Part shown: positions 395-64,000 of the stretch, piece by piece | Position numbering within the stretch: the first letter of the stretch is position 1 | How the letters are laid out: each line of letters opens with the position of its first letter | NCBI RefSeq assembly: GCF_949628265.1 | Contig: NC_088788.1 | Coordinates: forward strand, 7,626,001 to 7,690,000 | DNA: 64,000 nucleotides | Direction: 5' to 3' | Source: Cloeon dipterum | Lineage: Eukaryota; Arthropoda; Insecta; Ephemeroptera; Baetidae | Program-made: the position numbers and the translations under genes | Notes under the pieces: model-generated | What the model saw: only the letters and a program-made list of their open reading frames with translations | Database searches by the model: none | Told to the model about the DNA's origin: nothing

Positions 395-830
395 AATCAG
401 CAATTTTTCGTTAAGTTTTTATTCTGTACATATTTATTACTGTTGCAAGTATTTGGCGTTTAATTAGACACCGGTATTCTATGGAAGATCCAGTCGCGAA
501 AGAGGGAGACTTCGATGTAGAGTCCAGGATTTCCGCAGGTGGGATATTGAGCATAGGAGAGGCCACGAAGCTCGCCGTCATAAACTAGAGGAGCTCCAAC
601 GGCGTTGTAAGAGCACATGCCGGTTCCATTGTCGGAATCCCCGGCGCAAATTAAATTTGACAAATTAACTCCTGGATACGATCTTGTCCAGAACCGGCAT
701 GTCCAGCTTTAACATTCGATGCGATAAATGATTGTATAGCGTAGGAATTTTTATTATTATTTGAAACTCAACTGATTCATCCCAGCTCGAGACTGTTGTT
801 GAGTTAATTCCTCGTTCAAAACGAACAACA
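395..830 (-). pseudogene. Decayed 3' fragment of a serine protease homologue (SPH) gene
   Basis: The stretch 400-660 is nearly identical to the 3' UTR and last exon of SPH-A (6254-6580), including CAGDSDNGTGMC and GAPLVYDGELRGL. Compared with SPH-A it has two extra bases near the stop, which change the C-terminus, and a deletion of about 15 bp around the codons for KCYSS. From about 690 to 830 only scraps of the preceding exon can be recognised, and no 5' exons exist between here and the annexin that starts at 1042. This is a non-functional relic. It was probably carried along when an annexin plus the neighbouring SPH 3' half was duplicated. The near identity of the UTR suggests a recent event or gene conversion. 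Confidence 0.8.
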
Positions 831-3909: not shown

Positions 3910-6120
3910 ATGGCTCGATTCGTGCTATTGCTCCTGGGATTCACCCTCTCTGTCTCGGTTTGCCACTCGCAAAATGATACACAAGTAAGTTAAAAATGAT
4001 AATAAAACAAATTGATTTTGTTCAAATTGTAAATTCCCTAATAAATAATTCCCTATTGGCCAAAAGATATAAATATATAAGGACGAAACAAACGCAAAGG
4101 TCACAGCGATTAATTTGCAACGTTGCCAGATAACCTTGGCCTGTTTTTTTAGGGTCGAAAAATCTCCCCAGGTTTCTCAAAGGTTCCTAGTGAAGCTACT
4201 CTTTCCTAGTCGCCTTAAAAATTGTGGGGCAGCGCTTGGTTATTTTTAGCAATTCTCTGTCAACTTCTGCTAATGAACTTTAATGGAAATAAAAAATTGT
4301 TTTTGCTGTATAGTAACATTGTTTTTTCAGTCATTTTGTCACTTAATGTGCTTCAAAAATTCTTAATTTTTATATAATTTACAAATAAATCGTCCAAACG
4401 ATTAGAATTAAAAAAAAACTGGGATATTTAATAAAATATTGCATCAACCATTTTTTCGGCTTTTGCAGTTGAAGCCGACAATAGTTCCTGCGTCATCATT
4501 TGACGCGAGTACCGACGCCAACGTGCTGCGCGAGGCCATGGATTTGACTCAGAAGTGCAACCAAACGGCCATTGGGTCCATCCTTTCCCGACGCAGTCTC
4601 GCACAAAGGCTCGAAATTGCTGAAAAGTACAAGTTAAATTTCGGAAAGGTCCGTAGGTTTTTTTTGTAAAAAATAAATTCTGATATAGTTTTCGACCAAC
4701 AGGACTTGGCAAATGAATTATTTAGCTCGACCTGTCGGTCCCGCGGCTCAATGCACGCACGCATGAGCAAGGCCATGGTCACTCCTCTGCCCACACAATT
4801 CAGCAGTTTCCTTGATCTCGCAATGTTTGGCCAAAAAACGATCGAGTCGGAGCTAACAGAGATCCTCTGCGGCAACAACAACGCCATGATCAGGGACATC
4901 GCCCAGGCCTACACTGATGGTAAAATAAATATAAACATGCTCCGTATTAAGTTAAGACGAAAAATTAGGACTCTTTTAAAGAGGAAAATTTTCAGAAGCA
5001 TTATATTGATTTGTTTGAGAAAAAATAACAGAATTGTACCTTTACTGAAGTCTATATTTGACCAATCAGTCTGTGCGACATATTATAAAAACCCTGTGTA
5101 TATAAAATGTTTTGAAATAATTTCTTGATTTTTAAAATATAGTAAGGAAATTTGTTGAAAAATTCTCATTTGTATGAAAATATTATTATATTATAGTCAA
5201 TTTCATCTATTTCAAAGAATGAAATTTTGGAAATTGTGAAAATTATCCTCATAACAAACATTATCAAAAAAACATTGCTTTGAAAATTAATAAAATAGAG
5301 TTTGTTGAAATAGAAAATAGTTTTTATTAAATTAGCTTTTTCATAATTCATATCCGTGACCACCTTAAATATTCAACAAACTTTTGCCCGCCATTTTTCC
5401 CTCAGAGTACAAAAAGAGCCTGCTGACCGATCTGGAGGGTAAGACGACCGGCGGTCTGGAGCGTCTGCTCGCGCTTCTGGTGCTAGCAAACCGCAACGAG
5501 TCGTCTCAGGTCGACAGCCAGAGGTTTAGCGACGACGTCTTGGCGCAGTTCAACGGTGGCAAGGTCAACTGGCACGACGGCCCAGGAAGGCTGAACCACG
5601 TGCTGGCGCTGCGCAGCTTCCCGCACATCCGCAGGGTCTTCCTTGAGCTGTCCCGCAAAACTGGAAAGGACATTAAGGCCCTCATCGAGGAGCAGTTCTC
5701 CAGCGGCACCAAGGACGGATACGTAGCTTGCGGTGAGTCACACAACGAGATCAAATTTATAAATTTATGGTAAAAAAAATTACTAAGTAAAATGCTGATT
5801 CAACTTTAAAATTTCAGTGCGCATCATTCAAGAGCCTCAGGAATATTTTGCTGATGTTTTAAAGCAGACGTTGGAGGGTTTTCTCGGTTCAGGAGATCCA
5901 ACCATCGCCCGCGTCGCCCTGACCAGGTCGGAAATTGACCTTGGAACCATTAAAGAGAAGTACAAGCAGAAATACGGACGCGCAGTCATTGACGTAATTC
6001 ATGTACGAATATTTAGCTGAAAGTTTGCAGATTTTTATATTATGCTCTAAATTGTATTTTGGTTTACAGGAAGACTCCAGCGGTGCCTATAAGGACTTGC
6101 TGACTGCCTTTTTCGGCTAG
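3910..6120 (+). CDS. Secreted annexin (complete, signal peptide plus four repeats)
   Basis: Six exons with consistent phases: 3910-3984, 4469-4648, 4703-4919, 5406-5732, 5818-6002 and 6070-6120, giving 344 aa (annexin cores are about 310-320 aa). Residues 1-20 are a hydrophobic signal peptide (MARFVLLLLGFTLSVSVCHS) in its own exon. Repeat I follows (SILSRRSLAQRLEIAEKYK), then repeat II (ESELTEILCGNNNAMIRDIA), repeat III (LRSFPHIRRVFLELSRKTGK) and repeat IV (RSEIDLGTIKEKYKQKYG). The canonical GxGT loops of type II calcium sites are missing from repeats I-III and altered in IV (FLGSGDPT), so calcium-dependent membrane binding may be weak. The likely job is extracellular phospholipid or glycan binding; this is inferred from the family and the signal peptide. 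AATAAA lies at 6160. Confidence 0.9.
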
Positions 6121-6320: not shown

Positions 6321-7576
6321 TTAGACCCCGGTATTCTGGAAGATCCAGTCGCGGAAGATGGAGACTTCGATGTAGAGTCCTGGATTTCCACAGGTGGGAT
6401 ATTGAGCGTAGTAAAGGCCACGAAGCTCGCCGTCATAAACTAGAGGAGCTCCAACGGCGTTATAAGAGCACATGCCGGTTCCATTGTCGGAATCCCCGGC
6501 GCAAATTAAATTGGACAAATTAACTCCCGGATACGAGCTGTAGCACTTGATCTTGTCCACAACGGGCATGTTCAGCTTTACGAGAACATCTGAGGGCACA
6601 AATGGTGCCTATTTATTTTAATTATTTTTTTTTAGTGGGAATTATTTTTTTATTATTATTCGATACTCACTGATTCATCCCAGCCCGAGACGGTTGAGTT
6701 GATTCCTGGCAAGGATTCTTCGTTCAAATCGGGCAGCCGCACTGGTTCAATGTTAGAATTGAACTCGAATGGTGGATCCACCCGCATTAAGGATAAAAAA
6801 CCGATTTCGTTGTTAATAGTTTCGTTGATGCTGTGGATCGAACCAGGATTCGTCCAATTCACGGTCCCAGCTACTACTCGGCCATCTTTTTCTGGTTTAC
6901 TGTAGTGAATGTTACAATCATTAGTTTTCTTTCTTAAATTATTTGTTTTGAAATTACCTTGAAATAAAATTAAAAACTTTTTAACCAAATAATAGTTTTT
7001 AAATATATTAAAATACTGTATATATTTTTAAATTTTGACCATTGATTGTTGATCTTTAATCTTGACTTTTTTTATTAAAATTATAATTTATTTGTAATAA
7101 AGAAGTCAAAGTTTGGTTAAAAATCTCCAGGAAAATAGGAAAATAGATAAATTGTTTAAAAAATCAATTCATATAAATTTATATAAATCTGTCTCACCAT
7201 TGCCAATTAATTAGTATTTAATTAATAAAAATAACCCACTACACTCGTTGAATATGACACTCACAATATACAAATCTGGTCAGTGATGATAAATTCCGTG
7301 GAGATAATGCTGGCATCGCAAACGTGTATCCAGGTCTCGTTGGAATCAAAGAACTGGAGAGACACGTGCCACGGGAATTCTCCCTCCGCAGCCGGCGTTC
7401 CTCCTATGATTTTGCTCTTTCTAAACTCATTGCTACGTTGGAACCTCGTCGGAAGGCCTAAAAATAGGGCAGTAAAGCGGTCAGACTACTTAGCAATTTT
7501 AACAAATGTGGAGGAAACTACCACCGGCGAGAACGATGAGACAACACACTGCAAAAATCACTACTAAACTTTGCAT
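6321..7576 (-). CDS. Secreted serine protease homologue SPH-A (catalytically dead trypsin-like)
   Basis: Exons in transcript order: 7522-7576, 7265-7457, 6671-6899 and 6321-6608, all joining in phase, for 254 aa. The signal peptide is MQSLVVIFAVCCLIVLAGG. After a short pro-region comes the zymogen-type site K|IIGGTPAAEGEFPWHVSLQ. The S1 (chymotrypsin) fold is clear and the cysteines of three canonical disulphides remain (42-58, 168-182, 191-220). All three catalytic positions are lost: TAAHC is TDQIC, the Asp102 loop reads NNEIGFLSLMRVDPPFEF, and GDSGGPL is replaced by SYNAVGAPL. It therefore cannot hydrolyse peptides by the usual mechanism. Known insect SPHs act as cofactors, decoys or adhesion proteins; which applies here is unknown. 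It is first in a head-to-tail cluster and lies tail to tail with an annexin. Confidence 0.9.
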
Positions 7577-7918
7577 GCTGAGTTTAAAAATCTATAACTT
7601 TAAAATATCTCAACTGAATTCTGCATTCGATTAGTTCTTGATAAGAATAAAAATTATAAGATAACGAGTTTTGATAAGATGCGAGTCTTGTTTAATTGAG
7701 GTATTTTAATACGTCGGAAAAAGAGAAAGCGAATGTCAGAATTATTTTTTTTTAATTCAAAATCAGCTAAAAATTTCCTAATTAAATTAATATTTGTTTC
7801 TTTTGTTGAACAAAGCCCAAACTTGCATTGAAATTACAAAATGCAATTTATTTTGGTTTAACAATCTTTCTCATGAAATGTAATTCACTTATATATTGTG
7901 TCTGGTGCGACTGGGGAT
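7577..7918. other. Spacer between SPH-A and SPH-B
   Basis: It contains the upstream region of SPH-A (a weak TTATAG element near 7600) and the AT-rich 3' UTR of SPH-B. No other gene or repeat was recognised. Confidence 0.4.
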
Positions 7919-9653
7919 TTAGACGCCAGTAACTTCTTGAATCCAGTTGCGGAAGGGGGAGACCTCGTTGTAGAGTGCGGGATATACACATTGGCCAACG
8001 TCGCCTAATTCATAGTCGAAGAGGCCACGTAGCTCGCCGTCAAAAACGAGAGGGCAACCGTAGGCTCTGTCGGTGCACATGTTAGCCTCATTGTCGCCAT
8101 CTTCGACGCAAAGTACATTGGTCAAATTTTGCCAATAATAAATGCTTTCGCAATTGGTCTTGGGCACGACTATCACGTCCAGCTTAACTAGTTCTTGAGA
8201 TGGCTCAAATGGCGCCTGAGAAAATAAAATTCAAGACAAACCGAGGAAGAGAAAAAATATAGTCAGCACAATTTCACCCATGCCTGAGACTGTCATGGCT
8301 GTTCCTGGCACGCTTTCTTCGTTCAAAGTGGGTAGCTGGATGGGTCCGATATCGGAGTTGAACTCAAAGGGTGGATCCATCCTCAAAAGGGCAAAAAAAG
8401 GCTCACCAATGATGTTTTCGGCCACGGTGTGGATCGAGCCTGGATCGGTCCAATTCAAAGTGCCGGCGACCACACGACCAAAATCATCTGGCCTTCTGCA
8501 ACGCGAGACATATATATGGCCGGTGGAAATAATCTTTCCAAAATAAAATATGCCAGGATTTTTGGCTTAATTAGGGCTGTTCATTTTTACGGTCGGCTAT
8601 TTCTTCATGAGCGCAAGGTTGTCAAATGAGCACAAATCATGCAATTTAACCGCACACTGACCAAATCCTATAGTAAAACTATATAATGTGTAGCGGTACA
8701 ACAACGCGGTCCTGCTTTTTGTTGGAAGCCAACAATTGTCGGCGGTTTGAATTATTGTAATTTTGCATTATTGTTTAACAGCAGAAAGATGATTTTAAAA
8801 TAAGAATTCAGTTTTCGTCCGTCAGCCACACGGTGCTGACGTGATTCGTTTGATTGTGCAGAACCCGATTCAAAGGGGTGAGTCCAACCGTCAGTTAAAC
8901 TAAAGAATTTGTAACTTATTATTGTAAACCATTTCAGTTCTGGTTTTTGATTAAGTATCCGATCGGATTTCCAACTGTAACCAATCCACCAACAAAATTC
9001 GTCAATCTGAATTCATCGGTCTTCATCATTTCAAACCCTCTTCATTCTCCCTAAATATGCGTTCGTTGCCGAACAAGTTTTCGCTCGGAACTTTTCCTTT
9101 CAACCGCATAATTTAGGCCTGGAAATTTTTCTAACCATATTTCCGACATATATTGGATTTTAAATTTTTACGAGTGACACTAATTATTTCATTTTTGCAA
9201 ATATTCTCACCATTAAATCTCGGGTTCTATAAAGAGTAAAAAAAACTGCACACCACTCGACTCGTCTCGACCTTCCCTATAGATAGCCAAAAGTAAACCC
9301 ACTTCTCCGTGCGTTAAATGAATTTTTAAAAAGGAAATAATAACATCTGAACTAGTAAAAAACCTACACTCGACAGTTGATATCTGTGAGGATGAATTCA
9401 TTCGAGACAATTGCACCATCGCAAACATGTACCCAGTTTTGAGCATCTGAAGACAACTGGATTGAGACATGCCATGGGAATTCGCCCTTCACGGCCGGTG
9501 TTCCACCAACAATCCTGCTGCTCAACCCTTGCTGCAACGGTTTTGGGGAACCTGTGACCAAGATGTTAAATTTAATTAATTAGGAATCCCGGCGGACTTA
9601 CCAGAGGCGAGAGCGGCGCAGCCAGCCAAAACTAGGACCGTTTTTAACAGCAT
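7919..9653 (-). CDS. Secreted serine protease homologue SPH-B (catalytically dead)
   Basis: Exons in transcript order: 9602-9653, 9368-9551, 8270-8495 and 7919-8215, joining in phase to 252 aa. The signal peptide is MLLKTVLVLAGCAALASG. Activation-type cleavage is at SSR|IVGGTPAVKGEFPWHV. The histidine motif TAAHC is TDINC, the Asp102 loop is GEPFFALLRMDPPFEF, and the serine loop is CTDRAYGCPLVFDG, so no triad residue remains. An extra cysteine sits in the serine loop (GCPL). The disulphide cysteines and the family signature GELRGLF are kept. Intron 2 (8496-9367) is enlarged by an interspersed repeat at 8689-9051; without it the intron would be about 500 bp. Intron 3 is only 54 bp. The donor of exon 3 (ATT|GTGCTG) is weak. 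Confidence 0.87.
8689..9051. repeat. Interspersed repeat, copy 1 (unclassified), inside SPH-B intron 2
   Basis: It starts TGTAGCGGTACAACAACGCG and closely matches 36907-37262 in the same orientation with only small indels. Shared internal blocks include TTCGTCCGTCAGCCACACGG and GTCCGATCGGATTTC (here ATCCGATCGG). No long ORF, no clear terminal inverted repeat, and no clear tRNA-type A and B boxes were found, so the class is open (non-autonomous element). Confidence 0.75.
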
Positions 9654-11256
9654 GCTGACAATCAGGCAGTTTGAGTTTACAGCACCAATCACTGATTTTT
9701 ATACGAATCAATCGTAAGGACCCTCTCTTTGCGGGTTGTGATAAGTTCGAGTTGGATGATAAAGAATTACGTATTTGAAACAAAGACGTCAGGAAATATG
9801 CGTAACTGTGTAATCTTTTTAATTGTTCTTAATTGGTTTATCAAATTAACAATTGAATAACATGCATTTGCATTAGATACGAATAAAGCTGAAATATTAC
9901 AATTTCCTTTCCATTTACTGGCTCTTATTTATACTTTGCCTTCAGTTTAATTAATTGTCAGTATGCCGTGTAGCTCGCCGTGATGAGGGATACAGGTTTG
10001 CAAACACACTTCAGAGCAAAATTGAAATTTATTGGAAAAAAATCTAATTTAATAATTTAAACATCATATTAAACTCATCTAGTCTTCATCCCATTGATTC
10101 CTCTAAGGGTAAAATTTGATTTTGGCATCATTCTAACAATTTATTTTATTTAAAAAAAGATCAAAATGTGCAAAAGCATTTGGCACTCACTTAAAGCTGC
10201 AATCCAGGATTGTGACGAAACAATTATTCGAGATTTGATAACTGCCATCGTCAAACCAACGCTCCCTTTGAATACAAACGCAAATTATTCTGCACAATTC
10301 TCGATAAAATCATTGAGCATTCTGATAATATCAACGACGTTACATAAAGTGCCTCTCATCTGAGACGGTGGATTACTTCATTTTGAAAGGAAGCCTGCGC
10401 TTGATTACGTCCCTCGTTCTGCTCATGATTATATGTATGTGATTAACTAATTAATTGAGACAGCATGCGTATTCTTCAATATTATGCAAGTCATAACTTT
10501 GATTGCGTAAAATTATTATGTCAGCGATAAAGCAACCAAGCATTATTAACACTACTTAGATTGATAATATATTGTATATTTGTAACTCGAATAGATACAG
10601 ATTAAAAGTTTCTCTTGGTTTAGCATTTAGGCACATTCAAATAATTAAATTATAAATTAAATAACAATTTCAATGGAACTAATTTAGTTCAAAATTAACT
10701 TATTTAAAAAAATATCTTTGACTAAAAAGTTATATTATTTGCAAATTTACAAAATTAAGCCTAAATTAATTACTGCTCGGATTTTTATAGTTTAAAACTA
10801 GAGTATGGCTCAAAAGGCAAACAATTCATGCTCATTTGATGTGCCTGCAACTATTTTAGCTCATTATTTGGCAGATAAAGATGTCCATCACCAAAAATTC
10901 AAAGCAGCGAGCGAAAAATTGTTTTAAAATCTCTAAGACACTAAATTTCTGTCTCATTTGTAGGAGGTTTAAGTCCAGCGTAAATATACCACCAAATAAG
11001 AATTTATATGTCCTTTCTGGACACCAAAATCTATGTCTGGTTTTTTTATATACATTTTTAAGTATATTGGAAAAAGACTCATAGGCGCATTATAGTTAGA
11101 CGAATTATTTTATTTTGCTCTAAAGCAAAACAACATCACATATATATACCTACACATTTAAATTCAAACAGGCAAAAATTTGATTTTGTGAGTTAATTTT
11201 TTGGCTGTTTTTCCATAATTAAATTAAAAACTAAAATAATTTAAATATTATTATCG
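9654..11256. other. Spacer between SPH-B and SPH-C; possible SPH relic near 9965-10110
   Basis: The minus-strand TATA box of SPH-B is at 9695-9703 (TATAAAAAT). A short match to the conserved SPH segment for GELRG (CCGTGTAGCTCGCCGTGATG, near 9965) and a weak match to the exon 3 end near 10085 (CTTCATCCCATTGATTC) hint at a heavily decayed SPH copy. The rest is AT-rich and holds nothing I can identify. Confidence 0.35.
9695..9703 (-). promoter_or_regulatory. TATA box of SPH-B
   Basis: TATAAAAAT on the minus strand lies about 45 bp upstream of the ATG at 9653. The same TATAAAAA arrangement precedes SPH-C and SPH-D, so the cluster shares a strong TATA-type promoter design. Confidence 0.6.
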
Positions 11257-12328
11257 TTAAACACCAGCAATCTCGTAGATCCAGTCGCGGAAGTTGGACA
11301 CTTCGACGTAAATGCCAGGGTAATCACACCCTCTAAATTGGCTGCGGAAAAGCCCTCGCAGCTCACCGTCTAAAACGAGAGGGGCTCCCAAGTCAATATT
11401 CGAGCACGACCCTGTGCCGTTGTTGGCGTCTCCAGCGCAGATGTAGTTTTCAAAATCAAACGGCGAATTGGGGAACAGGTCCGAACACCAAGCCTTGGAC
11501 AAAACCGGCGACTCCAACTTCATTAAAATGTTAGTTTCATCCTAAAATCAAAACATTATTTAAAATAAAAATGGAGAAGGTTTAAATATTTTGAGAAACA
11601 TACAATTTCGCTCCAGGCTGAGACTGTCAGAATTGTGCCTGGAAAGGTTTCAGTGCTCTGATGAGGCAGAAGGATTGGTCCAGTGTTGGAATTAAATGCA
11701 AAGGGTGGGTCAACCCTCATGAGGACAATTTCCCTAGATGAGTCATTTCGAATGGTTTCAGCGATGAAGTGGACCGAGCCAGGGTTTGTCAAATCCAAAG
11801 TTCCGGCAATTACTCGGCCAAACTCGCCAGATTCCCTAGATTTAGTCATTACATAGATTTAAATCGTTTAACTACAAAATTTCCTTGGATTTAATTAAAA
11901 ATATTATTTTTCAAGAAGATTGTTATAAAAAAATCAATTTGTATATGATTGTAAATATTTTAAATGAAGATATTTTGATAGATTTAAACTAAAAAATATT
12001 CATTTTCACTCACATGGCGCATATTTCGTCGGTGAGGATGAATTCCTTGGAGATGATGGTGCCATCGCATTTATGAGTCCAGTGCTGCCCATCGGAAGTA
12101 TTCTGGATGGCGACATGCCACGGAAATTCACCTTGCTCAGCCACTGTGCCGCCAATAATCCTGCTATTAATGTCCTCGGTTGACTCAGTAAGTTCCATTT
12201 CCTGCAGATTTGAAGGAACGCCTGAAAAAACAAAATTACAAACTGTGTTCAGTTAAATTTATTTTAATATACTTACCGCAGGCAATTGCGGCGATGCAAG
12301 CCAGAACGATCACTGCTTCGGTCTGCAT
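11257..12328 (-). CDS. Secreted serine protease homologue SPH-C (catalytically dead)
   Basis: Exons in transcript order: 12277-12328, 12014-12221, 11604-11835 and 11257-11541, in phase, for 258 aa. The signal peptide is MQTEAVIVLACIAAIACG. A pro-region with the acidic stretch ESTED precedes NSR|IIGGTVAEQGEFPWHVA. TAAHC is TDEIC, the Asp102 loop is DSSREIVLMRVDPPFAF, and the serine loop is CSNIDLGAPLVLDG, so the triad is absent. The serine-loop block CAGDANNGTGSC strongly resembles CAGDSDNGTGMC of SPH-A. The first and last exons match the other SPHs in length. The gene is complete and looks functional as a secreted non-enzyme. Confidence 0.9.
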
Positions 12329-14139
12329 GGTGAGTTGATTTGTGTGTGTCTGCATGTTGGCAGCCAGACGACTGCTTTTTATACAGAAATTATCTAGAGC
12401 AAAAGGGCTGTGCAAAGGGACTCTGCACTTTTCCTGGAAAATATAATTGAGCGCGCGTTATCGGATTTTAACTTGCTCCAGTTACCAATTCTAATTACTC
12501 TGGGAAAAAATTGAAAAGATTGTAATATCAGTGATGATTGTATGCGGCTCAGTTGAATAATTATTATCTTTGAGGAGCGCACTCCTATGTTTTTTAAAAA
12601 TTAAAAATTGCATTTGTGGTGCTGACTAGGTGTTATATGTTATTGGAGGGAAATAAGGGAAAATGGATTACAATAAAATTAATTTCAGGATCTTATGTGC
12701 AAATTTTCCTGAGAGCGGTTCCGTGTACAGGTAGCAGTTTTTTAAATTTGCAAAAAGCTAATTGATAAGATTAAAGATAACGATAATGAGTATTAATATT
12801 GGCTGTTATTTGTAATTAGGTCAAACTTACTGATATAAAATAATATCACGCGTGATTTTCACCATTCAAAAATTGATTGCATTTCTTCAATTTTTCCAAG
12901 AACCCCATTTGATCAGCCGCTCATTACGGTGAGTGTCCATAATGATTATACGTGGCTTTACGTGATGAATATTCAAACCGAAATCATGACCAAATAAATT
13001 TGACTTTTTAACAATTTGAGAAATGAATTTCAAATAAATTAAAAAGTAGCTATAATTAAACTTCATTTGATGTGGCTTCATTACTGTCTATTTCAAATTA
13101 ACACTAATTAAAATCAAGACAAAAACAATTAAAATTAAAAAACACCATTGTTGGACTTAAATTTCCATATCAATTCTATTTAATATACGACTCAGTAAAG
13201 CACCAAGCAGATTGTGACGCAGCTGGCCCAGTTCAGAAACTGATAATGTTCTTGCAACTCTTTTTCCCAGAATAAGTATACAGAGTCCCTTTTACTGCAC
13301 TTAAGTATAGTATAATAAAGAGCGCGATGCTTCCAACAGATTTTTAATTTAGCTAAACATGCAGAGGAGAGTGGCCACGTCTTCGGCTCTAGTTGCGCCG
13401 CACTCACTCGCAGTAAGAACTTTTTATTTCCTTCATTCTCTAGTTTAAAAAGAAATAACTGAATTATTGCTGTACTTTCTAAAACCAATTTTTTATAGGA
13501 ATGATTTTACTACACGTTGTGTCGGAAAAAATAGCAACAAATACCATAAAACTAAATGTGGATATTTCTTTCGTCTTCTAAATTACCTGTCTTATTGGGA
13601 AAATATATTTATGCATCTAAGTCATCCTGGTGGCGGTAAAATTAATTCCATGAAGTCGGAGCAAACAGGGGAACAATAATTATTCCTTTCTGTTAGAAAT
13701 ACAACGAATTATTAGGAATACACGTTCAATACCGCAGCAAAGAAAGTTTCCAGATTAGAATTTTAAAATTAATTGCCTTTTTGCAACACCAAAAGAGCAA
13801 TATTTTTATACTGATAGCATGCAATTAAAAAATTGTCAAACCTATTTATGCAGTCAAGATATTCACAAAACTCACATTTTAATAAAATAAATTTCAAACA
13901 CAGCCTGCTGATACTTTGCTCTATTAAAAAACAATAAAAATTAATTATTACTAATGCAAAGGAAATTTGTTTTAGTAAAATTGTACCCACCTTCGAAAGG
14001 TGGCAGTAAAAATCTTTTTTTTTTTTTGTAAGTCTACATTGTAGTTAATGGGTTTTATTGAGTTACACAATCCTGTTTAATAATTTCTCAAACAACTTCA
14101 GATTTATTGAAATTATTATTAATCCTCCTCGTTACAGCT
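12329..14139. other. Spacer between SPH-C and SPH-D
   Basis: The minus-strand TATA box of SPH-C (TATAAAAAGC) is at 12374-12383. The remainder is AT-rich. A moderately GC-balanced patch at 13190-13430 carries opposing short ORFs but has no recognisable product. A T-rich tract lies at 14013-14027. No gene is supported. Confidence 0.4.
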
Positions 14140-15619
14140 TTAGACGCCAGCGATCTGCTGAATCCAGTCGCGATATCGGGGAATGTCGGCGTAAAATGCA
14201 GGATAATAATTATAGCACGGCTCGTATTGAGAGAAAAAGACGCCACGCAACTCGCCATTGTAAACCAGAGGGGCGCCAGGGTTTCTGTTAGAGCACATGC
14301 CTATTTCAGAGTTGCTAGCTCCAGCGCAGAGAATATTAGTCAAGTCTACTTCTGGATGAAAGGAGTTGCACGAGAGGAAAGATATAACGAAAATGTCCAA
14401 CCTCATGATTTGGTCTACCTGATTCTGTAAATAAACACATGACACATAATTTAAAAGTGCAGCAAAGTACAAAACTTACACCTTCGCCCCAACCCGTGAC
14501 AATCATCCCGGTTCCTGGATCGGATGTGGCGTCCGCAGGGGGCAGCATAACAGGCCCGATGTCAGGAGTGAATTCGATTGGAGCGCTTAGTTTCAGGAGG
14601 GCCACGTAATTGACGGGGCTGACAATCGTATCGATCACATAGGAAACCTGGCCAGTGAACGGTACATTCTTATCTACATATCCGGCTACTACGCGGATTT
14701 CTTCCCCTTGTTGTCTGAAAAATAGGAAAAGATTTTTGAACAGTTTTTTTGACACAGTTTAATTTCTTCCCTTCTACACAAGAAATATGTACTATAATGA
14801 CGGTTTTAAATTATGGATCGATACAGGGTGACAATGGAAAATTATTTGAATAATTGTTGGATGCAATAAGCAGATAAAAACAATAATTATTTGTTCTACA
14901 GTTTGCAACAGTAAAAAATAAGCTTATGTTAGAGTAAAAATTCAAATTTTTGATATTTTCTCCAAAATTTCCAGCGCTTGACCATTTTGTTGGCAGATTA
15001 AAATTATTCCTCTTTTGTCGCGATCTGTCCAACGGTGTATGACACTTTTTGGGGAAACTGTGTTTTGAAATAAAATCAAATTTCAAGCAGGGAGACAGTC
15101 CTCACCATTTGAAAAGCCACTTTTCTAAAAAAATTATTCGTGTATTGGCAACAAGGATTTTCCAGGAAATCCTCTTTAATTTTGATTATTTAAAAAATAT
15201 GCGTTTTTATCTAAATTATCTATAACATTGTTCTATATGTGAATTTTAGGAATTTTCCATTCAGGATAATCATGAGTACTTACGATCCGCAATAATAAGA
15301 TGCAATGACGAATAGATTTGAGATGATGGCGCCTTCACACCTGAATACCCACAACTGAATATTTTCATCATTGGCGTCAATTGTGACATGCCACGGAAAA
15401 TCTCCGAGAGCAACAGGAATTCCTCCATCGACCCTGTTTGATTCTCGAGGCTCAACCTCATGTGGTTGGACTTGACGTACTGCTGACGTACCACCTGTTG
15501 AAAGGAAAAATAAAGTTAACAATTTAAACCCGTTCTGGGGCGAAGAAAGTTATGAAATATTCAATACCGCAGACTAATGCAGTGCAGCAAGCCAAAACGA
15601 TCACCGCTTTCCTCAGCAT
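14140..15619 (-). CDS. Secreted serine protease homologue SPH-D (catalytically dead, divergent)
   Basis: Exons in transcript order: 15568-15619, 15284-15494, 14480-14714 and 14140-14424, in phase, for 260 aa. The signal peptide is MLRKAVIVLACCTALVCG. The activation site is degenerate (SNR|VDGGIPVALGDFPWHV), so zymogen-type cleavage would not yield the usual IVGG terminus. TAAHC is ASYYC, the Asp102 position is Tyr in NYVALLKLSAPIEF, and the serine loop is CSNRNPGAPLVYNG. It keeps GWGEG and LLKL, closer to active trypsins than its neighbours, which suggests an earlier branch of the cluster. Intron 2 holds a TTAA-flanked MITE (14806-15179). The TATA box is at 15651-15662. Confidence 0.88.
14806..15179 (+). 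mobile_element. TTAA-flanked MITE, copy D (internally deleted), in SPH-D intron 2
   Basis: It is bounded by TTAA at both ends. It shares with the copies at 36335, 33994 and 60620 the internal blocks GATCTGTCCAACGGTGTATG, GGAGACAG and TTGGCAACAAG. It is shorter than the ~440-bp copies because of a deletion near the right end. Its termini are more diverged than those of copies B and C. The TTAA target suggests a piggyBac-type or similar transposase acting in trans. This copy lacks a transposase ORF. Confidence 0.75.
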
Positions 15620-20109: not shown

Positions 20110-22075
20110 ATGGTTTTGTCCCTGCCGCTCTGGCTCAACGTGCTTTTGAGCCTTTCAGCCGTTTTTCTGGGTCTGCTCTACTACTACCTAACCTACAACT
20201 TCGATTATTGGAAGAAAAAGGGCGTCAAGTAAGATTAATGAATTAATAAATCAAATTAAACTGATTTTTTTAATATTTTAGACATGAGAAAGGTTGGCCA
20301 CTGTTCGGCTCGGTCTTTACGGCCATGACCCTGAGGGAGCACAGGGTCCACTGCCTCGATAAAATCTACAAAAAATACAGCGGTGAGAGTTTCGTCGGCT
20401 ATTACCAGGGAAGAGACCCGGCTCTTCTCGTCTTAGATCCTGAGCTGATCAAGAGAATTCTTGTCAAAGACTTTAGTTATTTTACCAGCCATGGCGTCAA
20501 GGTCAGTCATAAATTATTAAAAACTAAGAAATTAAAAATATTTAATTTCAGTTTCATGAGCAAAGAAACCCCATGTTGGCGAAGAGTTTGTTCGGTTTGG
20601 ACGGACAGCGATGGCGAGACATGAGGAGCAAAATGGCGCCGACCTTCACCACGGGCAAAATTAAAATCATGGTGCCACACATGGCCGAGGCGGGCCGAAA
20701 TTGGCTTCAGTTTTTGTCTAAAAACGTCTCCGATGAAGCGGTCGATCTGAAGGTACAATTTTTATTCACAAAAATATCATACATTCATTATGAAATATCA
20801 GGAGCTTGCGGTGACCTACACAGCCGACGCAATCGGAAGCTGCGTCTTCGGCGTGAATTACAATGCGTTCGAAAATCCGAACAATACGTTCATGAAAATG
20901 GGCAGAAGATTAGTTAGCTACGACTTTAAGAGAGGATTTAAGGCGTTTTGCGTGTTCCTTTTCCCAGAGGTGCCTTTTATAAATCAATTAATTAAATTGG
21001 TTTGATTTAACTTTATTCCGTCTAGCTCGCGAAATTTTTCGATTTGGAGTTTTTTGAAAAGAGCACGGTTGAGTTCTTCTGCAACCTACTTACGGAAATG
21101 ATGGATAGCAGGAAGAAAACGGGACAGACGCGCAAAGATTTTCTGCAGTTGATGATTGAACTGAAGGAAAAAGGTTCCGTGGCTTCAGACAACGCAGAAG
21201 AAGAAAAAGAGAGCAAAGAACTCGGTGGATTAGAAGATTCCCAGCTTTCATCGGGCAAATTCGGTTAGTGCTTCAATTTGCACATGTTTGAAATCAATTA
21301 AATTATAATTTTCAGAATTTTCTGACGAGGATCTATTCGCCCAGGCGTTTGGTTTCTTCATTGCTGGATTTGAAAATTCGTCGACGCAGATTTCTCTTGC
21401 ATGCTTAGAGCTGGCTGTCGAGAGCACATTGCAGCAAAGAGCACACGCCGAAATCGATCAGGTTTTGAAGGAACACGACGGAAAATTGACTGCCGAAGCG
21501 CTCAAAAAAATGGTTTACCTCGAAAGCATAGTCCAAGGTAAAAGGTTCAAGCAATAATTTAAGAACTTTTGGCTCATTTTTTCCTTATTTTAAAGAAACG
21601 CTTCGAAAATACCCGGCAACGGGAGGACTGATCCGCAGCTGCACCAAAAACTACATGATCCCCGGCACCAACGTGCGTCTCGAAAAAGGCACAATCGTCA
21701 TGATTCCATCTTACTCGCTCCAAAACGATCCCAAGTACTTCCCTGACCCAGAAAGGTTTGACCCTGAACGCTTCTGTGACGAGGACGCTCACCACAAACT
21801 GCAGTACCTGTACACACCCTTTGGAGACGGACCGAGACACTGCATAGGTTTGAGAATTCAACCGCATATATAGGGCTCAACTAATAAATTTTTCGTTTAT
21901 AGGAATGCGATTCACTCTGCTTCTAATCAAAACTGGCCTGGTTTCGATTTTGAGCAAATTTGAAATCTTGCCATGCAAAGAAACGGTATATCCGCCAACA
22001 ATCGACCCGCTTCGCATGCCTCTGAGCGCTGTTGGTGGAGTTCGAGTGAAACTGCAAGAGCGAATAGTTAAATGA
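20110..22075 (+). CDS. Cytochrome P450, CYP3 clan (CYP6/CYP9-like), gene 1
   Basis: Eight exons with consistent phases: 20110-20228, 20282-20501, 20552-20752, 20802-20969, 21026-21263, 21316-21537, 21596-21847 and 21903-22075, giving 530 aa. An N-terminal membrane anchor (residues about 5-25) is followed by TYNFDYWKKKGV, typical of CYP6/CYP9-like proteins. The C-helix WxxxR is WRDMR, the I-helix oxygen-binding motif is AGFENSST, ExxR is ETLR, the PERF motif is FDPERF, and the haem loop is FGDGPRHCIG with the proximal cysteine. All key residues are present, so an active ER monooxygenase is expected; CYP3-clan members commonly oxidise xenobiotics or plant compounds. The substrate is unknown. 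An acidic insertion, EEEKESKELGG, lies between helices G and I. Confidence 0.95.
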
Positions 22076-26342: not shown

Positions 26343-28329
26343 ATGGTTTTGTCCCTGCCGCTCTGGCTCAACGTGCTTTTGAGTCTTTCAGCCGTTTTTC
26401 TGGGTCTGCTCTACTACTACCTCACCTACAACTTCGACTATTGGAAGAAAAAGGGTGTCAAGTAAGATCATAAATTAATTAATCAAATTAAACTGATTTT
26501 TTATTTTTTTTTCAGATATGAGAAAGGCTGGCCACTATTCGGCTCGCTGTTTACGGCCATGACCCTGAGGGAGCACAGGGTCCAATGCCTCGATAATATC
26601 TACAAAAAATACAGCGGTGAGAGTTTCGTCGGCTATTACCAGGGAAGAGACCCGGCTCTTCTCATCTTAGATCCTGAGCTGATCAAGAGAATTCTTGTCA
26701 AAGACTTTAGTTATTTTACCAGCCATGGGATTGAGGTTAGTATACAAAATTGTTAAAATAGCGGAAATTAATTTAATTTTTTTTATTGCAGTTTCATGAA
26801 AAAACCAACCCCATGTTGGCGAAGAGTCTGTTCGCTTTGGACGGACAGCGATGGCGAGACATGAGGAGCAAAATGGCGCCGACCTTCACCACGGGCAAAA
26901 TGAAAATCATGGTGCCACACATGGTCGAGGTGGGCCAAAATTGGCTTCAGTTTTTGTCTAAAAACGTCTCCGATGAAGCGGTCGATCTGAAGGTAAATTA
27001 TTTTATTTAAAAATTATACATTTTATTATAGTATTCATTCTGGAATATCAGGAACTTGCAGTGACCTACACTGCCGACGCAATCGGAAGCTGCGTCTTCG
27101 GCGTGAATTACAATGCGTTCGAAAATCCGAACAATACTTTCATGACAATGGGCAGAAGACTAGTTAGCTACGACTTTAAGAGAGGAATTAAGGCGATTTG
27201 CGTGATCTTTTTCCCAGAGGTGGATTATAAATGAATTAATAAATTTATTTGATTTAATTTTTTTCCATCTAGCTCGCGAATTTTTTGGATTTTGAATTTT
27301 TTGAAAAGAGCATGGTTGATTTCTTCTGCAACCTACTTACGGAAATGATGGATAGCAGGAAGAAATCGGGACAGACGCGCAAAGATTTTCTGCAGTTGAT
27401 GATTGAACTGAAGGAAAAAGGTTCAGTGGCCTCAGACAACGCAGAAGAAGAAAAAGAGAGCAAAGAATTAGGCGGATCATTTGAAGATTCCCAGCTTTCA
27501 TCGGGCAAATTCGGTTTGTGCTTCAATTTGCATATGTTTGAAATCAATTAAATTACAATTTTCAGAATTTTCTGACGAGGATCTATTCGCTCAGGCGATT
27601 GGTTTCTTCGTTGCTGGATTTGAAAATTCGTCGACGCAGATTTCTCTTGCATGCTTAGAGCTGGCTGTCGAGAGCACATTGCAGCACCGAGCCCACGCCG
27701 AAATCGATCAGGTTTTGAAGGAACATGACGGAAAATTGACTGCCGACGCGCTCAAAAAAATGGTTTACCTCGAAAGCATAGTAGAAGGTAAAAGGTTTAA
27801 GCAATAATTTATGATCTTGTTGCTCACCTTTTTCTTATTTTAAAGAAACGCTTCGAAAATATCCGCCAACGGGAGGACTGGTCCGCAGTTGCACCAAAAA
27901 CTACCTGATCCCCGGCACCAACGTGCGCCTCGAAAAAGGCACAATCATCATGATTCCATCTTACTCGATCCAAAACGATCCCAAGTACTTCCCTGACCCT
28001 GAGAGGTTTGACCCTGAACGCTTCTGTGACGAGGACGCTCACCGCAAACTGCAGTACCTGTACACTCCCTTTGGAGACGGACCGAGACATTGCATAGGTT
28101 TGAGAATTCAACCATTTTTTATTAATATAATTAATGAAATTTGGCATTTTTAGGAATGCGATTCACTCTGCTTCTCATCAAAACTGGCCTGGTTTCGATT
28201 TTGAGCAAATTTGAAATTTTGCCATGCAAAGAAACGGTATATCCGCCAAAAATCGACCCGGTCCGCATGCCTCTGAGCGCTGTTGGTGGAGTTCGAGTGA
28301 AACTGCAAGAGCGAAAAGTTAATAACTGA
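26343..28329 (+). CDS. Cytochrome P450, CYP3 clan (CYP6/CYP9-like), gene 2
   Basis: Eight exons in the same pattern as gene 1: 26343-26461, 26516-26735, 26792-26992, 27052-27219, 27273-27513, 27566-27787, 27846-28097 and 28154-28329, giving 532 aa. All P450 motifs are intact (WRDMR, AGFENSST, ETLR, FDPERF, FGDGPRHCIG). Differences from gene 1 include FHEKTNPM versus FHEQRNPM, SLFALDG versus SLFGLDG, GGSFEDSQ versus GGLEDSQ, KYPPTGGLV versus KYPATGGLI, and the C-terminus KVNN versus IVK. Several of these lie in or near likely substrate-recognition regions, so substrate range may differ slightly. It is the recent tandem paralogue of gene 1. Confidence 0.95.
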
Positions 28330-59343: not shown

Positions 59344-61563
59344 TTACACTCCGGTGATTCGGAAGATCCACTCGCGGAATAGGGACACTTCCGTATAAAG
59401 CTCAGGTAAGTTACAACCAGGCTTGCTGTATAAAATACCACGGAGTTCACTGTTATAAGCCAGAGGAGAACCATATCCGATACTAGTGCAAAAGCCGGTT
59501 GTTTCGTCGGAATCCCCAGCGCAAATTAAATAGATTAAATCCGCTCCTGGCAGCAGGATGGAGCACAAGTCCTTGGACACAATCGGCACCAGCAGCTTCT
59601 CGAGTCTTCCAGAAGGCTGATAAGGGGCCTAAATCGAACTGTTAATACGTTTTGTTTTGGATTTGAGCTTTAGAAAACCTTACAGACTCGCCCACGCCTG
59701 AGACCGTCGTGACAGTTCCTGGCACGGAAGCAGAGAACCGAGCGGGAAGCTGGACAGCTTGAATGGAGCAATCGAATTCAAACGGTGGGTCCACCCTGTA
59801 GAGGGTCAGGTGGTTGCTTGTTCGGTCGTCGTTATAGGCTTCGGTTATGTTGCGAGGGTTGGTCAAATCCGAGGTGCCAGCTATTACTCTCATAGTGTCC
59901 AGACTCTCCCTAAGGCATGGAAGAAAAAGTCGCATTTTTGTTATTAAAATTTCTGCGCTGTTATCATTTCTTTGGTCATGGTCAAATATTAATATTGAAT
60001 ATTTTATCAGCTTTCAGAATATGTTTGGTGGTTTTTTTCTACGACTGACCATGAAAAATTAACACAGCCCAGGAGAAGCAATTATAATAGAAAATTAATA
60101 TTTTGCTCTTAATGTCGAAATCGACCCAGCGATGATCGATGTGCCTCAAGAAAATACAAATTTATGTAAATATATCTAGAAAAAACTGTATTTTTTATTG
60201 ATTTTGAAAGCTGTTGCCTTATTAATTGTTTTAAATCCCGTATCGCTATAATCATCAGAAAATAAAATACGTACAAGCTACAAAATGCGTCCGTGAGGAT
60301 GAAATCTCTGGAGATGATGCTGCCGTCACAAAAATATACCCATTCTGATTTCATTTGGTCAAAATACTGGAGCGAGATATGCCAGGGGACCTCGCCCTTC
60401 GCAACCGGCGTTCCACCGATGAGTCTGCCAGCACCAGCCTTGCTCAACCCCAACTTGCTAATCGGCAGCTTATTTGGAAGTCCTAAAAAGCCGAAACCAT
60501 CGAATTATTTAAACAGCTACATTTAGTTTAGTTAATTTCATAACATAAAAAAATAATAATAATAATATGTAAAATAAAATTTGACTCGTAAAGACATGGA
60601 GTCTGTGCTCTTTCATTAATTAAAGAGGAATGATACTGGAAAAGCCTGGAAAATGCTTGTTGCCAATGCAAAAACTCATCCCTTAGGATTCAGTTAAAGC
60701 CTAAATTGACCTAAGGAGCGCTGTAATTTTTTGAGAAAATTGGCTGGAAAGTTAGCGTGCTTTTCAAATGGTAATGGCTGTCTCCTTACTTGAAATCCGA
60801 TTTAATTTCAAAGCCAAGAGTTTGCCCAATAAGTGGCATACACCGTTGGACACATCTCGACCAGAGGAATCGGAATATGCCAAGAAAATATGTTCAAGCA
60901 CTGTAAATTTTGGAGAAAATTGGCAAAATTTGAATTTTTATTGTAGGTAGGTCATTTTTTATTAGTGCAAATTGTTGAACAAATTGTTTATCGAAAAATT
61001 GTTTAAGGCATCCAACAATTTAAATAATTTCCAATTGTTGCACAGTATCATTGCACTTTAAACAGCATTGATATAGAGGGCAGCAATTGAAATCAATTAG
61101 AATAGTTGCCTTTTACTACATAGCACTTATGTTGTTCGTCAAATTGTTTTTCGGAATAAAAATCTGAACAATGAGAAACAGTAAAATCAGGATCCGGTAA
61201 CAATTACATTTCAGATTTTGCCTAATTATTTAACTAAACTGGTTTTTGAAGATAATTTTTCGCATGATTTCAATTCCTCAATTTGGTCTATCCTCCGATA
61301 AGTGGGCAAAATTTCTCTTCGGATAAAATAAACCGCGATTTTCAATAAGGAGACAGTGCTCGCCGCTTGATCAGCATGTTGTGCAACTTGGCAGATGATT
61401 TCCTGGTAATTTAAATGGCAAACCTGGAAAATGTTTGCTCTTCCCCATTTTTCAGAGCATAAAAATTGCAAATTAAATTAATTTACGATTTGTAAAATTT
61501 TAACTCACCGCCGGAAAGAACTGTGGCGCAGCACGCCAACAACAGGACCACTTTGCACAACAT
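59344..61563 (-). CDS. Secreted serine protease homologue SPH-E (catalytically dead)
   Basis: Exons in transcript order: 61509-61563, 60275-60482, 59684-59909 and 59344-59628, in phase, for 257 aa. The signal peptide is MLCKVVLLLACCATVLSG. Cleavage would be at AGR|LIGGTPVAKGEVPWHIS. TAAHC is TDAFC, the Asp102 loop is TSNHLTLYRVDPPFEF, and the serine loop is CTSIGYGSPLAYNS. GELRGL is here SELRGI. Exon lengths and phases match SPH-A to D although the gene lies 44 kb away, so the family spans both ends of the window. Intron 1 (61508-60483) is expanded by a TTAA MITE (60620-61061). The TATA box is at 61601-61610. Confidence 0.9.
60620..61061 (-). mobile_element. TTAA-flanked MITE, copy C, in SPH-E intron 1
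   Basis: TTAA lies on both sides; the ends are AGAGGAATGATACTGG and ACAGTATCATTGCACT. It has the same orientation as copy A and the reverse of B. A further diverged scrap at about 61345-61460 (GGAGACAGTGCTCGCC, AACCTGGAAAATGTTTGCT) may be another relic. Confidence 0.87.
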
Positions 61564-62920: not shown

Positions 62921-64000
62921 TCAGACACCGGTGACATCGGAGATCCATTCGCGGAAGAGGGAGACCTCGGTGTAGACGACAGGAAACTCGCAACCAGTCT
63001 GATAGTGGAAGAGGCCACGAAGTTCACCATTGTAAACGAGAGGTGAGCCAAAACCGCCTGCATGGTTGCAGAATCCGGATTCGTCGCTGGAGCTTTTGGC
63101 GCAAATGTGGTAGACCAAACTTCTGATTCCCGGAGCCAGCGGGTAGCACAGCGCCTTGGACACGATCAACGAGTTCAACTTGACCAGCTGGTTGGATGGC
63201 TGATATGGTTCCTGGTTGATTTTGAGAATGTTGTGATTTAAAATGTTATCATAGGATCCTAATTTTTTAAGGAATTTCGTTGAATTTAATAAAAAAAATT
63301 AACCAGAGTGATTTTAATTTAAAAAGACGCTTCGCAAATAATGTTAATATTTTTAGGTGGTTTATAAATTTGTACATTGGACGCAAAATAAACTCACGGA
63401 TTCGCCCCAGCCTGAGACTGTCATTTCTGTTCCTGGACACGATTCCACGAACGCGTCGGGTAGGCGAACGGGTGAAAGGAAAACGGTGAACTCGAACGGA
63501 GGATCCACCTTCCAGAGGGTGAGGGAGCCGTAGTGGAGTGGGTCGTCGATGAATTCGACAACTTTGTGAGTCGAACCAGGGTTTACCCAATCCACGGAGC
63601 CAGCTGCTACTTGGTACGTGTCAATGTCGAACCTGCGTTAAATTTTAAATCCAATATTAGCTACACATTTTTTTTAAACAAATTTCTTTCTGCTTCAAAT
63701 TGCAGTGAAAATATGATTTTTAGACCGTTTTAGATAATTTAGTTTGGGAGCACTACTGGATTTTTTACCTCAAAAATGTTTTAGATAGTTGCTCAGTAGT
63801 CTTAAAATACCTAAACTCATATGCTCGTTTGGTAACTAATTTTAAGAAAAAGCTCAAAAAAAATCTAACATAACTTACGATGAACACCAGCCGTTTGTAA
63901 TGACGAATTCGGTCGAAACGATGGCGCCGTCACACAAATGCGTCCAGTTATAGCCAGGAATTGCACGCTGGATGGAGACATGCCAGGGAAATTCGCCTTT
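62921..64000 (-). CDS. Secreted serine protease homologue SPH-F (5' part outside the window)
   Basis: Exons in transcript order: 63879 to beyond 64000 (partial), 63398-63632 and 62921-63211, with the same phases as the other SPHs. The visible product starts KGEFPWHVSIQ. TAAHC is TNGWC, the Asp102 loop is HYGSLTLWKVDPPFEF, and the serine loop is CNHAGGFGSPLVYNG, one residue longer than in its paralogues. The usual CAGDSD block is CAKSSSDESGFC. GWGES and GELRGLF are kept. The signal-peptide exon must lie beyond the right edge. It is head to tail with SPH-E. Confidence 0.88.

Follow-up and report, generated by a model that had tools for sequence, protein, structure and literature searches.

A clade of at least 12 trypsin-fold genes lacking the catalytic triad in Cloeon dipterum, nested among chymotrypsin-like proteases of the same chromosome

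A 64,000-nucleotide stretch of the Cloeon dipterum genome (C3:7626001-7690000, hereafter the window) carries six trypsin-fold genes in which no residue of the catalytic triad remains. The genome (190 Mb, 10 contigs) contains at least 169 trypsin-family exon matches; it also gives 5 matches to 7tm_6 (odorant receptors), a family that marks insects, and 94 to Chitin_bind_4. We joined the exons of the six genes, named SPH-A to SPH-F for serine protease homolog (SPH), at GT-AG borders on the − strand; coordinates are window positions unless given on C3. SPH-A lies at 6321..7576 (exons 7576-7525, 7457-7265, 6899-6671, and 6608-6321), SPH-B at 7919..9653 (9653-9602, 9551-9368, 8495-8270, and 8215-7919), SPH-C at 11257..12328 (12328-12277, 12221-12014, 11835-11604, and 11541-11257), and SPH-D at 14140..15619 (15619-15568, 15494-15284, 14714-14480, and 14424-14140). 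SPH-E follows at 59344..61563 (61563-61509, 60482-60275, 59909-59684, and 59628-59344) and SPH-F at 62921..64161 (64161-64110, 64050-63879, 63632-63398, and 63211-62921), the window part of the latter being 62921..64000, its exon 1 and the opening 50 bases of exon 2 falling beyond the window end. Each of the six genes comprises four exons with GT-AG introns in phases 1, 2, and 0, is free of stops (6/6), and encodes a hydrophobic N-terminal leader (6/6; judged by eye, with no predictor).

The family extends past the window. Four further genes lie just beyond its end (G on the + strand; H, I, and J on the − strand), and all ten genes from A to J have an open exon 1 with introns in phases 1, 2, and 0. 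Genome searches found two more, K and L, at C3:8.057-8.061 Mb, about 0.36 Mb away; an exon 1 was looked for in K and not found, and L has a candidate exon 1 only. Exons 2 to 4 are open with usable splice sites in 12/12 genes (A to L). Twelve is a lower bound, the genome searches for members having been queried with A, D, and E only.

His57, Asp102, and Ser195 are each present in 0/12 genes. From A to L, residue 57 reads INIYFWFIFWGL, residue 102 FFEYHSFHQHRF, residue 195 VYLPYFGYYYFW, and residue 194 AADNGGIGGGGG, with position 195 (and Gly193) counted back from Pro198, so that 195 is three before Pro198. Among SPH-A to SPH-F in order, residue 57 is I, N, I, Y, F, and W, exactly as listed in a preliminary description of the window, which had reported all three triad residues missing from these genes; residue 102 is F, F, E, Y, H, and S, and residue 195 is V, Y, L, P, Y, and F. 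SPH-C thus retains an acid (Glu) at 102, and it is the sole member of the 12 with Asp194. With an S1A domain and replaced triad residues in 12/12, the genes are by definition SPHs at the sequence level. The loop from C191 to P198 is 7 residues long in 10/12 and reaches 8 in F and 9 in G, compared with 6 in the triad-intact relatives R, T, U, and V described below. The lengthening of this GDSGGPL loop, described earlier as one or two residues, therefore holds, but its range is one to three (9 versus 6 in G). Bulky apolar residues (V, I, L, M, F, W, or Y) occupy position 57 in 10/12 genes, 195 in 10/12, and 102 in 5/12; across 73 other variable columns, used as a control, their mean share was 0.35, and 5/73 columns reached 10/12.

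A scan for derived fixed columns, among columns present in R, listed positions 27, 30, and 43. The clade has gained a fixed His30 and a fixed Asp/Glu43 (12/12 each), neither of which occurs in the seven relatives O, N, P, R, T, U, and V. Two new conserved polar residues might raise the idea of a new catalytic center built from other residues. However, the three columns that the scan listed include no Ser, Cys, or Thr that has become conserved, and positions 57, 102, and 195 are variable, with 57 and 195 mostly apolar, so that we regard such a center as extremely improbable.

The fold, in contrast to the catalytic positions, appears intact. Pfam Trypsin matches 10/10 of A to J (for SPH-A, residues 34-247 over model positions 1-220, 5.8e-27), and K and L, which lay outside the scan, align throughout with the other members. 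Six core cysteines (42, 58, 168, 182, 191, and 220) are kept in 12/12, with Cys220 displaced one place in H; they would form the three core disulfide pairs. The basic residue preceding residue 16, at the activation site, is retained in 10/12 and lost in G and L. The earlier claims of retained disulfides, exon phases, signal peptides, and, in most members, a cleavage-type site thus agree with the gene models. A seventh cysteine occurs in 7/12, at position 116 in E, H, I, J, and L, at 131 in F, and at 197 in B; this odd cysteine could permit disulfide-linked dimers.

Known phenoloxidase cofactors bear clip domains. Among A to J, no second Pfam family, clip domain included, was detected at E up to 0.1 (10/10), and the pro-region is short. 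Both features argue against the 12 being immune cofactors akin to the homologs of the phenoloxidase cascade. Such a role has a precedent, in that non-proteolytic homologs take part in insect phenoloxidase activation according to the passages used from PMC4085338, and we consider it very unlikely for these genes.

Trees were built both rooted and unrooted. In the rooted tree the 12 genes form a single clade (support 100/99); O (C3:15.18 Mb) is sister to the 12 (100/99), and N, at the same locus as O, branches next (94/88). The genes at C3:16.7 and 23.6 Mb (P, R, T, U, and V) fall outside the group of the 12, O, and N, with P weakly placed (P+N+O+12, 68/89). Among the 12, D has the longest branch. 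Identity to R is 38-43% for 11/12 members and 31% for D. The models of W and X (23.6 Mb) have stops or shifted frames, which an additional intron probably explains, and neither gene entered the trees or the counts; the gene models also exclude Q, the partial stretches and the remnant described below, and the genes of loci L018-L022. The clade is nested in a chymotrypsin-like, probably digestive, protease family of the same chromosome.

The relatives grade from active-looking to dead. At positions 57, 102, 195, and 194, R, T, U, and V have H, D, S, and D (triad intact in sequence). P has H, D, D, and D, with Ser195 lost; N has R, D, T, and D, with His57 and Ser195 lost; and O has S, F, D, and D, with all three lost, a 191-198 loop longer by one residue, and a changed 214-216 wall. 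By parsimony on the tree, the losses would have run from Ser195 to His57 to Asp102 with the longer loop, followed by the gain of His30 and Asp/Glu43. Because C keeps Asp194, that residue was lost inside the clade or more than once. Beside these genes, P (L016/L015) has also lost Cys58 while keeping His57 and Asp102, and L015 holds a degraded exon 4 remnant bearing GELRGL near position 8368 of that locus. The locus of N and O (L014, C3:15.176-15.185 Mb) additionally has a lone exon-4-like stretch near its position 2123, with Thr195 and Asp194, and a partial exon 3 near 4742, which suggests further intermediates or remnants.

This descent bears on two motifs shared within the cluster, RVDPPFEF and GELRGL, which the preliminary description took as a sign of selection for a new role. 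Triad-intact R has RVDPPFVF and NGELRGI. Since R carries both RVDPPFxF and GELRG(I/L), the signatures predate inactivation, and we rejected them as evidence for a new role. The broader claim, selection for a non-proteolytic role, keeps other support in the open frames, the family's low ratio of nonsynonymous to synonymous substitution rates (dN/dS), and the constrained scaffold.

Codon models were run with our own code, whose M0 likelihoods agreed with IQ-TREE in the three sets compared; tests on the 12 used 209 gap-free columns. Overall dN/dS was 0.42 for the 12 (different from 1, p ~1e-40) and 0.17 for P, R, T, U, and V. Cleft loops were defined as residues 35-41, 55-64, 95-102, 143-152, 169-176, 185-195, and 214-226, a set drawn from the literature on S1A loops and fixed after the site list from the plain site models had been seen. 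For the 12, dN/dS in the cleft and in the rest was 0.77 versus 0.32 under the plain model (p = 5e-8) and 0.62 versus 0.24 with multi-nucleotide changes (p = 8e-8). No such difference was found for P, R, T, U, and V, a control of five genes only, one of which (P) itself lacks Ser195 (0.20 versus 0.15, p = 0.26; multi-nucleotide, 0.11 versus 0.09, p = 0.35). The contrast could in part mirror general loop variability. Overall, constraint has held the framework in place, and the former cleft has been either released or diversified.

Plain site models favored diversification (M8 versus M8a, p = 4e-5 for the 12 genes and 4e-4 for H/I/J, the youngest trio) and gave no positive selection in P, R, T, U, and V (p = 0.70). 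Sites with posterior >0.8 fell in 17/50 cleft-loop columns versus 9/153 others for the 12 (Fisher p = 2e-6), and 7/8 such sites in H/I/J were in cleft loops (p = 8e-4). Once columns within two of a gap were removed, M8 versus M8a gave p = 0.003-0.006 with 10-13 cleft columns remaining; the cleft enrichment of posterior >0.8 sites was gone (Fisher p = 0.13 and 0.57), and mean dN/dS in the cleft still exceeded that elsewhere (p = 0.002 and 0.03). These patterns allow the tentative idea, which we hold possible rather than probable, that a fixed framework now carries a hypervariable recognition groove in place of the old substrate cleft, with the loops, including position 57, diversifying in a tandem birth-and-death repertoire under selection for varying partners (microbes, parasites, or diet-derived proteins).

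A variable cleft might also suit decoys that absorb dietary or parasite protease inhibitors and spare the active gut enzymes, the more so as the chymotrypsin-like relatives include triad-intact members. A canonical inhibitor requires the 214-216 strand, the S1 pocket, and the oxyanion region. In the 12, however, Ser214 and Trp215 are replaced in 12/12, Gly216 is replaced in 11 (with an alignment gap in I), and Gly193 is replaced in 11/12. This loss of the 214-216 wall and of Gly193 speaks against inhibitor decoys, which we consider distinctly unlikely.

The surroundings of the genes differ from the single whole cluster first described. A to F are all dead and belong to a larger family of 12, but they sit in two sub-clusters, with other genes, including a cytochrome P450 and mediator subunit 16, between D and E. 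Cytochrome P450 exons at 20274-20624 and 27815-28153 (+) mark two similar, probably tandem, genes there. The − strand at 460..815 (ends approximate) holds a broken partial copy of SPH-A that was absent from the earlier list; annexin-like exons sit between it and SPH-A. What remains of it is the tail of exon 3 plus exon 4, frame-shifted and with a deletion inside; exons 1 and 2 were not seen. Its identity to A is 93% over query residues 182-250 (C3:7626478-7626684). This copy points to birth and death in the cluster.

Might the whole family, then, consist of functionless duplicates on the way to becoming pseudogenes? The broken copy, the lost activation site in G and L, and the failure to find an exon 1 for K fit such decay, as does the overall dN/dS of H/I/J (0.975, not different from 1). 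A ratio near 1, named earlier as the sign of neutral evolution, is found only in this trio and not in the family. Within the trio, cleft and rest gave 1.33 versus 0.76 (p = 0.16), or 1.77 versus 0.68 with multi-nucleotide changes (p = 0.051), and the cleft was not above 1 (p = 0.35 and 0.15, respectively). Simple counting gave 0.90-1.16 in the cleft versus 0.46-0.80 elsewhere, not significant (Fisher p = 0.07-0.24). Cleft dS was 0.28-0.46 versus 0.14-0.18 elsewhere, and, among the introns of the trio (window coordinates 68593-74394, past the window end), intron 1 diverges by 0.03-0.12 versus 0.25-0.41 for intron 2; gene conversion over the 5′ ends has likely occurred, muddying the trio tests. 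Against decay, nonsynonymous divergence (dN) outside the cleft is 0.07-0.12, below the divergence of intron 2, and about 7.5 stops would be expected from the inferred changes if the trio were neutral, with 0 seen (P ~5e-4), a test made somewhat favorable by the choice of genes, which were modeled because they are open. Together with open exons 2 to 4 in 12/12, open exon 1 in A to J, and an all-gene dN/dS well below 1, these results make general decay unlikely.

Complete triad loss, open frames, dN/dS of 0.42, and a constrained scaffold instead argue for a maintained, non-proteolytic family. With moderate confidence, we propose that these at least 12 S1A homologs, one clade derived from chymotrypsin-like proteases, are secreted non-catalytic binding or regulatory proteins with variable loops. 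The ancestor would have been a chymotrypsin-like, probably digestive, protease that lost its triad stepwise. The product would be secreted and, in most members, clipped at the old activation site, yielding a disulfide-locked double barrel with a plugged active site, and the paralogs would offer differing loop surfaces to differing partners. The site of action is most likely the gut lumen or another extracellular fluid, a placement suggested by the leader, the lack of extra domains, and the kinship of the genes.

Several observations weigh against this proposal. In models that allow multi-nucleotide changes, the 12 have a cleft dN/dS below 1 (p = 0.007), which makes relaxed constraint in the cleft an adequate reading. 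With double and triple nucleotide changes, moreover, the test for positive selection gave p = 0.055 for the 12 genes and 0.075 for H/I/J; being marginal under such models, positive selection was not kept as an established result. The near-neutral ratio of H/I/J counts on the same side. Side-chain volumes at 57 and 195 showed no covariation (Spearman −0.14, p = 0.66), a result that lends no support to a finely packed plug, and structure prediction of exon 4 alone (95 aa, 6 rows) reached a mean predicted local distance difference test score of 58.1 and was not used. The gut is proposed by analogy with the relatives and with Tenebrio molitor. Finally, the TATA motif cuts both ways. Its presence as TATAAAA 43-55 bases upstream of ATG in B, C, D, F, and G speaks for the proposal, the background rate for a slightly broader version of the motif being 14.7% of random 130-base windows; but only 5/10 of A to J have a motif at the usual place. 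TATAAAA is followed by CAG in B, C, D, and G, and a related ATAAAAAGCAG is found in I and J; perhaps these represent a shared core promoter.

Evolution commonly preserves dead enzymes, but the path by which catalysis is lost and new features are gained is usually hidden, the intermediates being gone. Here, a single chromosome holds genes with the whole triad, P lacking Ser195, N lacking both His57 and Ser195, O lacking all three residues, and a radiation of 12 fully dead genes. The loss order, His30 with Asp/Glu43, and the variable cleft offer testable predictions on how a protease may turn into a binding protein.

Catalytically dead S1A domains serve binding in haptoglobin, HGF, and azurocidin, which are vertebrate, mostly single genes that usually keep part of the triad. 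Among insects, inactive trypsins 23-27 of Nilaparvata lugens belong to a family with several loci per scaffold (PMC4085338); they resemble the genes described here in trypsin-like type, signal peptide, and incomplete triad, the residues lost not being specified in the passages drawn on from that paper. In the parts used of a Tenebrio molitor survey (PMC11172050), 102/125 homologs are without regulatory domains and most have a signal peptide; proteases and homologs without such domains are mostly expressed in feeding stages only. These non-clip homologs likewise combine an S1A domain with a substituted triad. Asp102, however, is substituted in 13 of the 125 Tenebrio homologs and His57 is kept in 42/125, whereas here each is kept in 0/12 (with one Glu at 102). 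By this one yardstick, the family is more extreme than usual SPHs, as the preliminary description had it, but it is not new in kind, since inactivated trypsin-fold gene families are already known. The SMIPP-S of scabies mites, as described in the passages used from PMC4930577, are a trypsin-fold multigene family with mutated triads that originated through duplication next to an active digestive protease; some members act as inhibitors of human complement, and in dog scabies mites 2/18 Sar s 3 homologs have intact triads. Both systems are multigene families with triad-inactivated members (12/12 in the clade here). They differ in host, descent, and, apparently, completeness of triad loss: the SMIPP-S belong to a mite and are homologs of dust mite group 3 allergens, whereas the present clade is nested among chymotrypsin-like genes of its own genome, and all 12 members lack all three residues. 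By analogy, the 12 plausibly work in the manner of SMIPP-S, as dead paralogs with a binding job.

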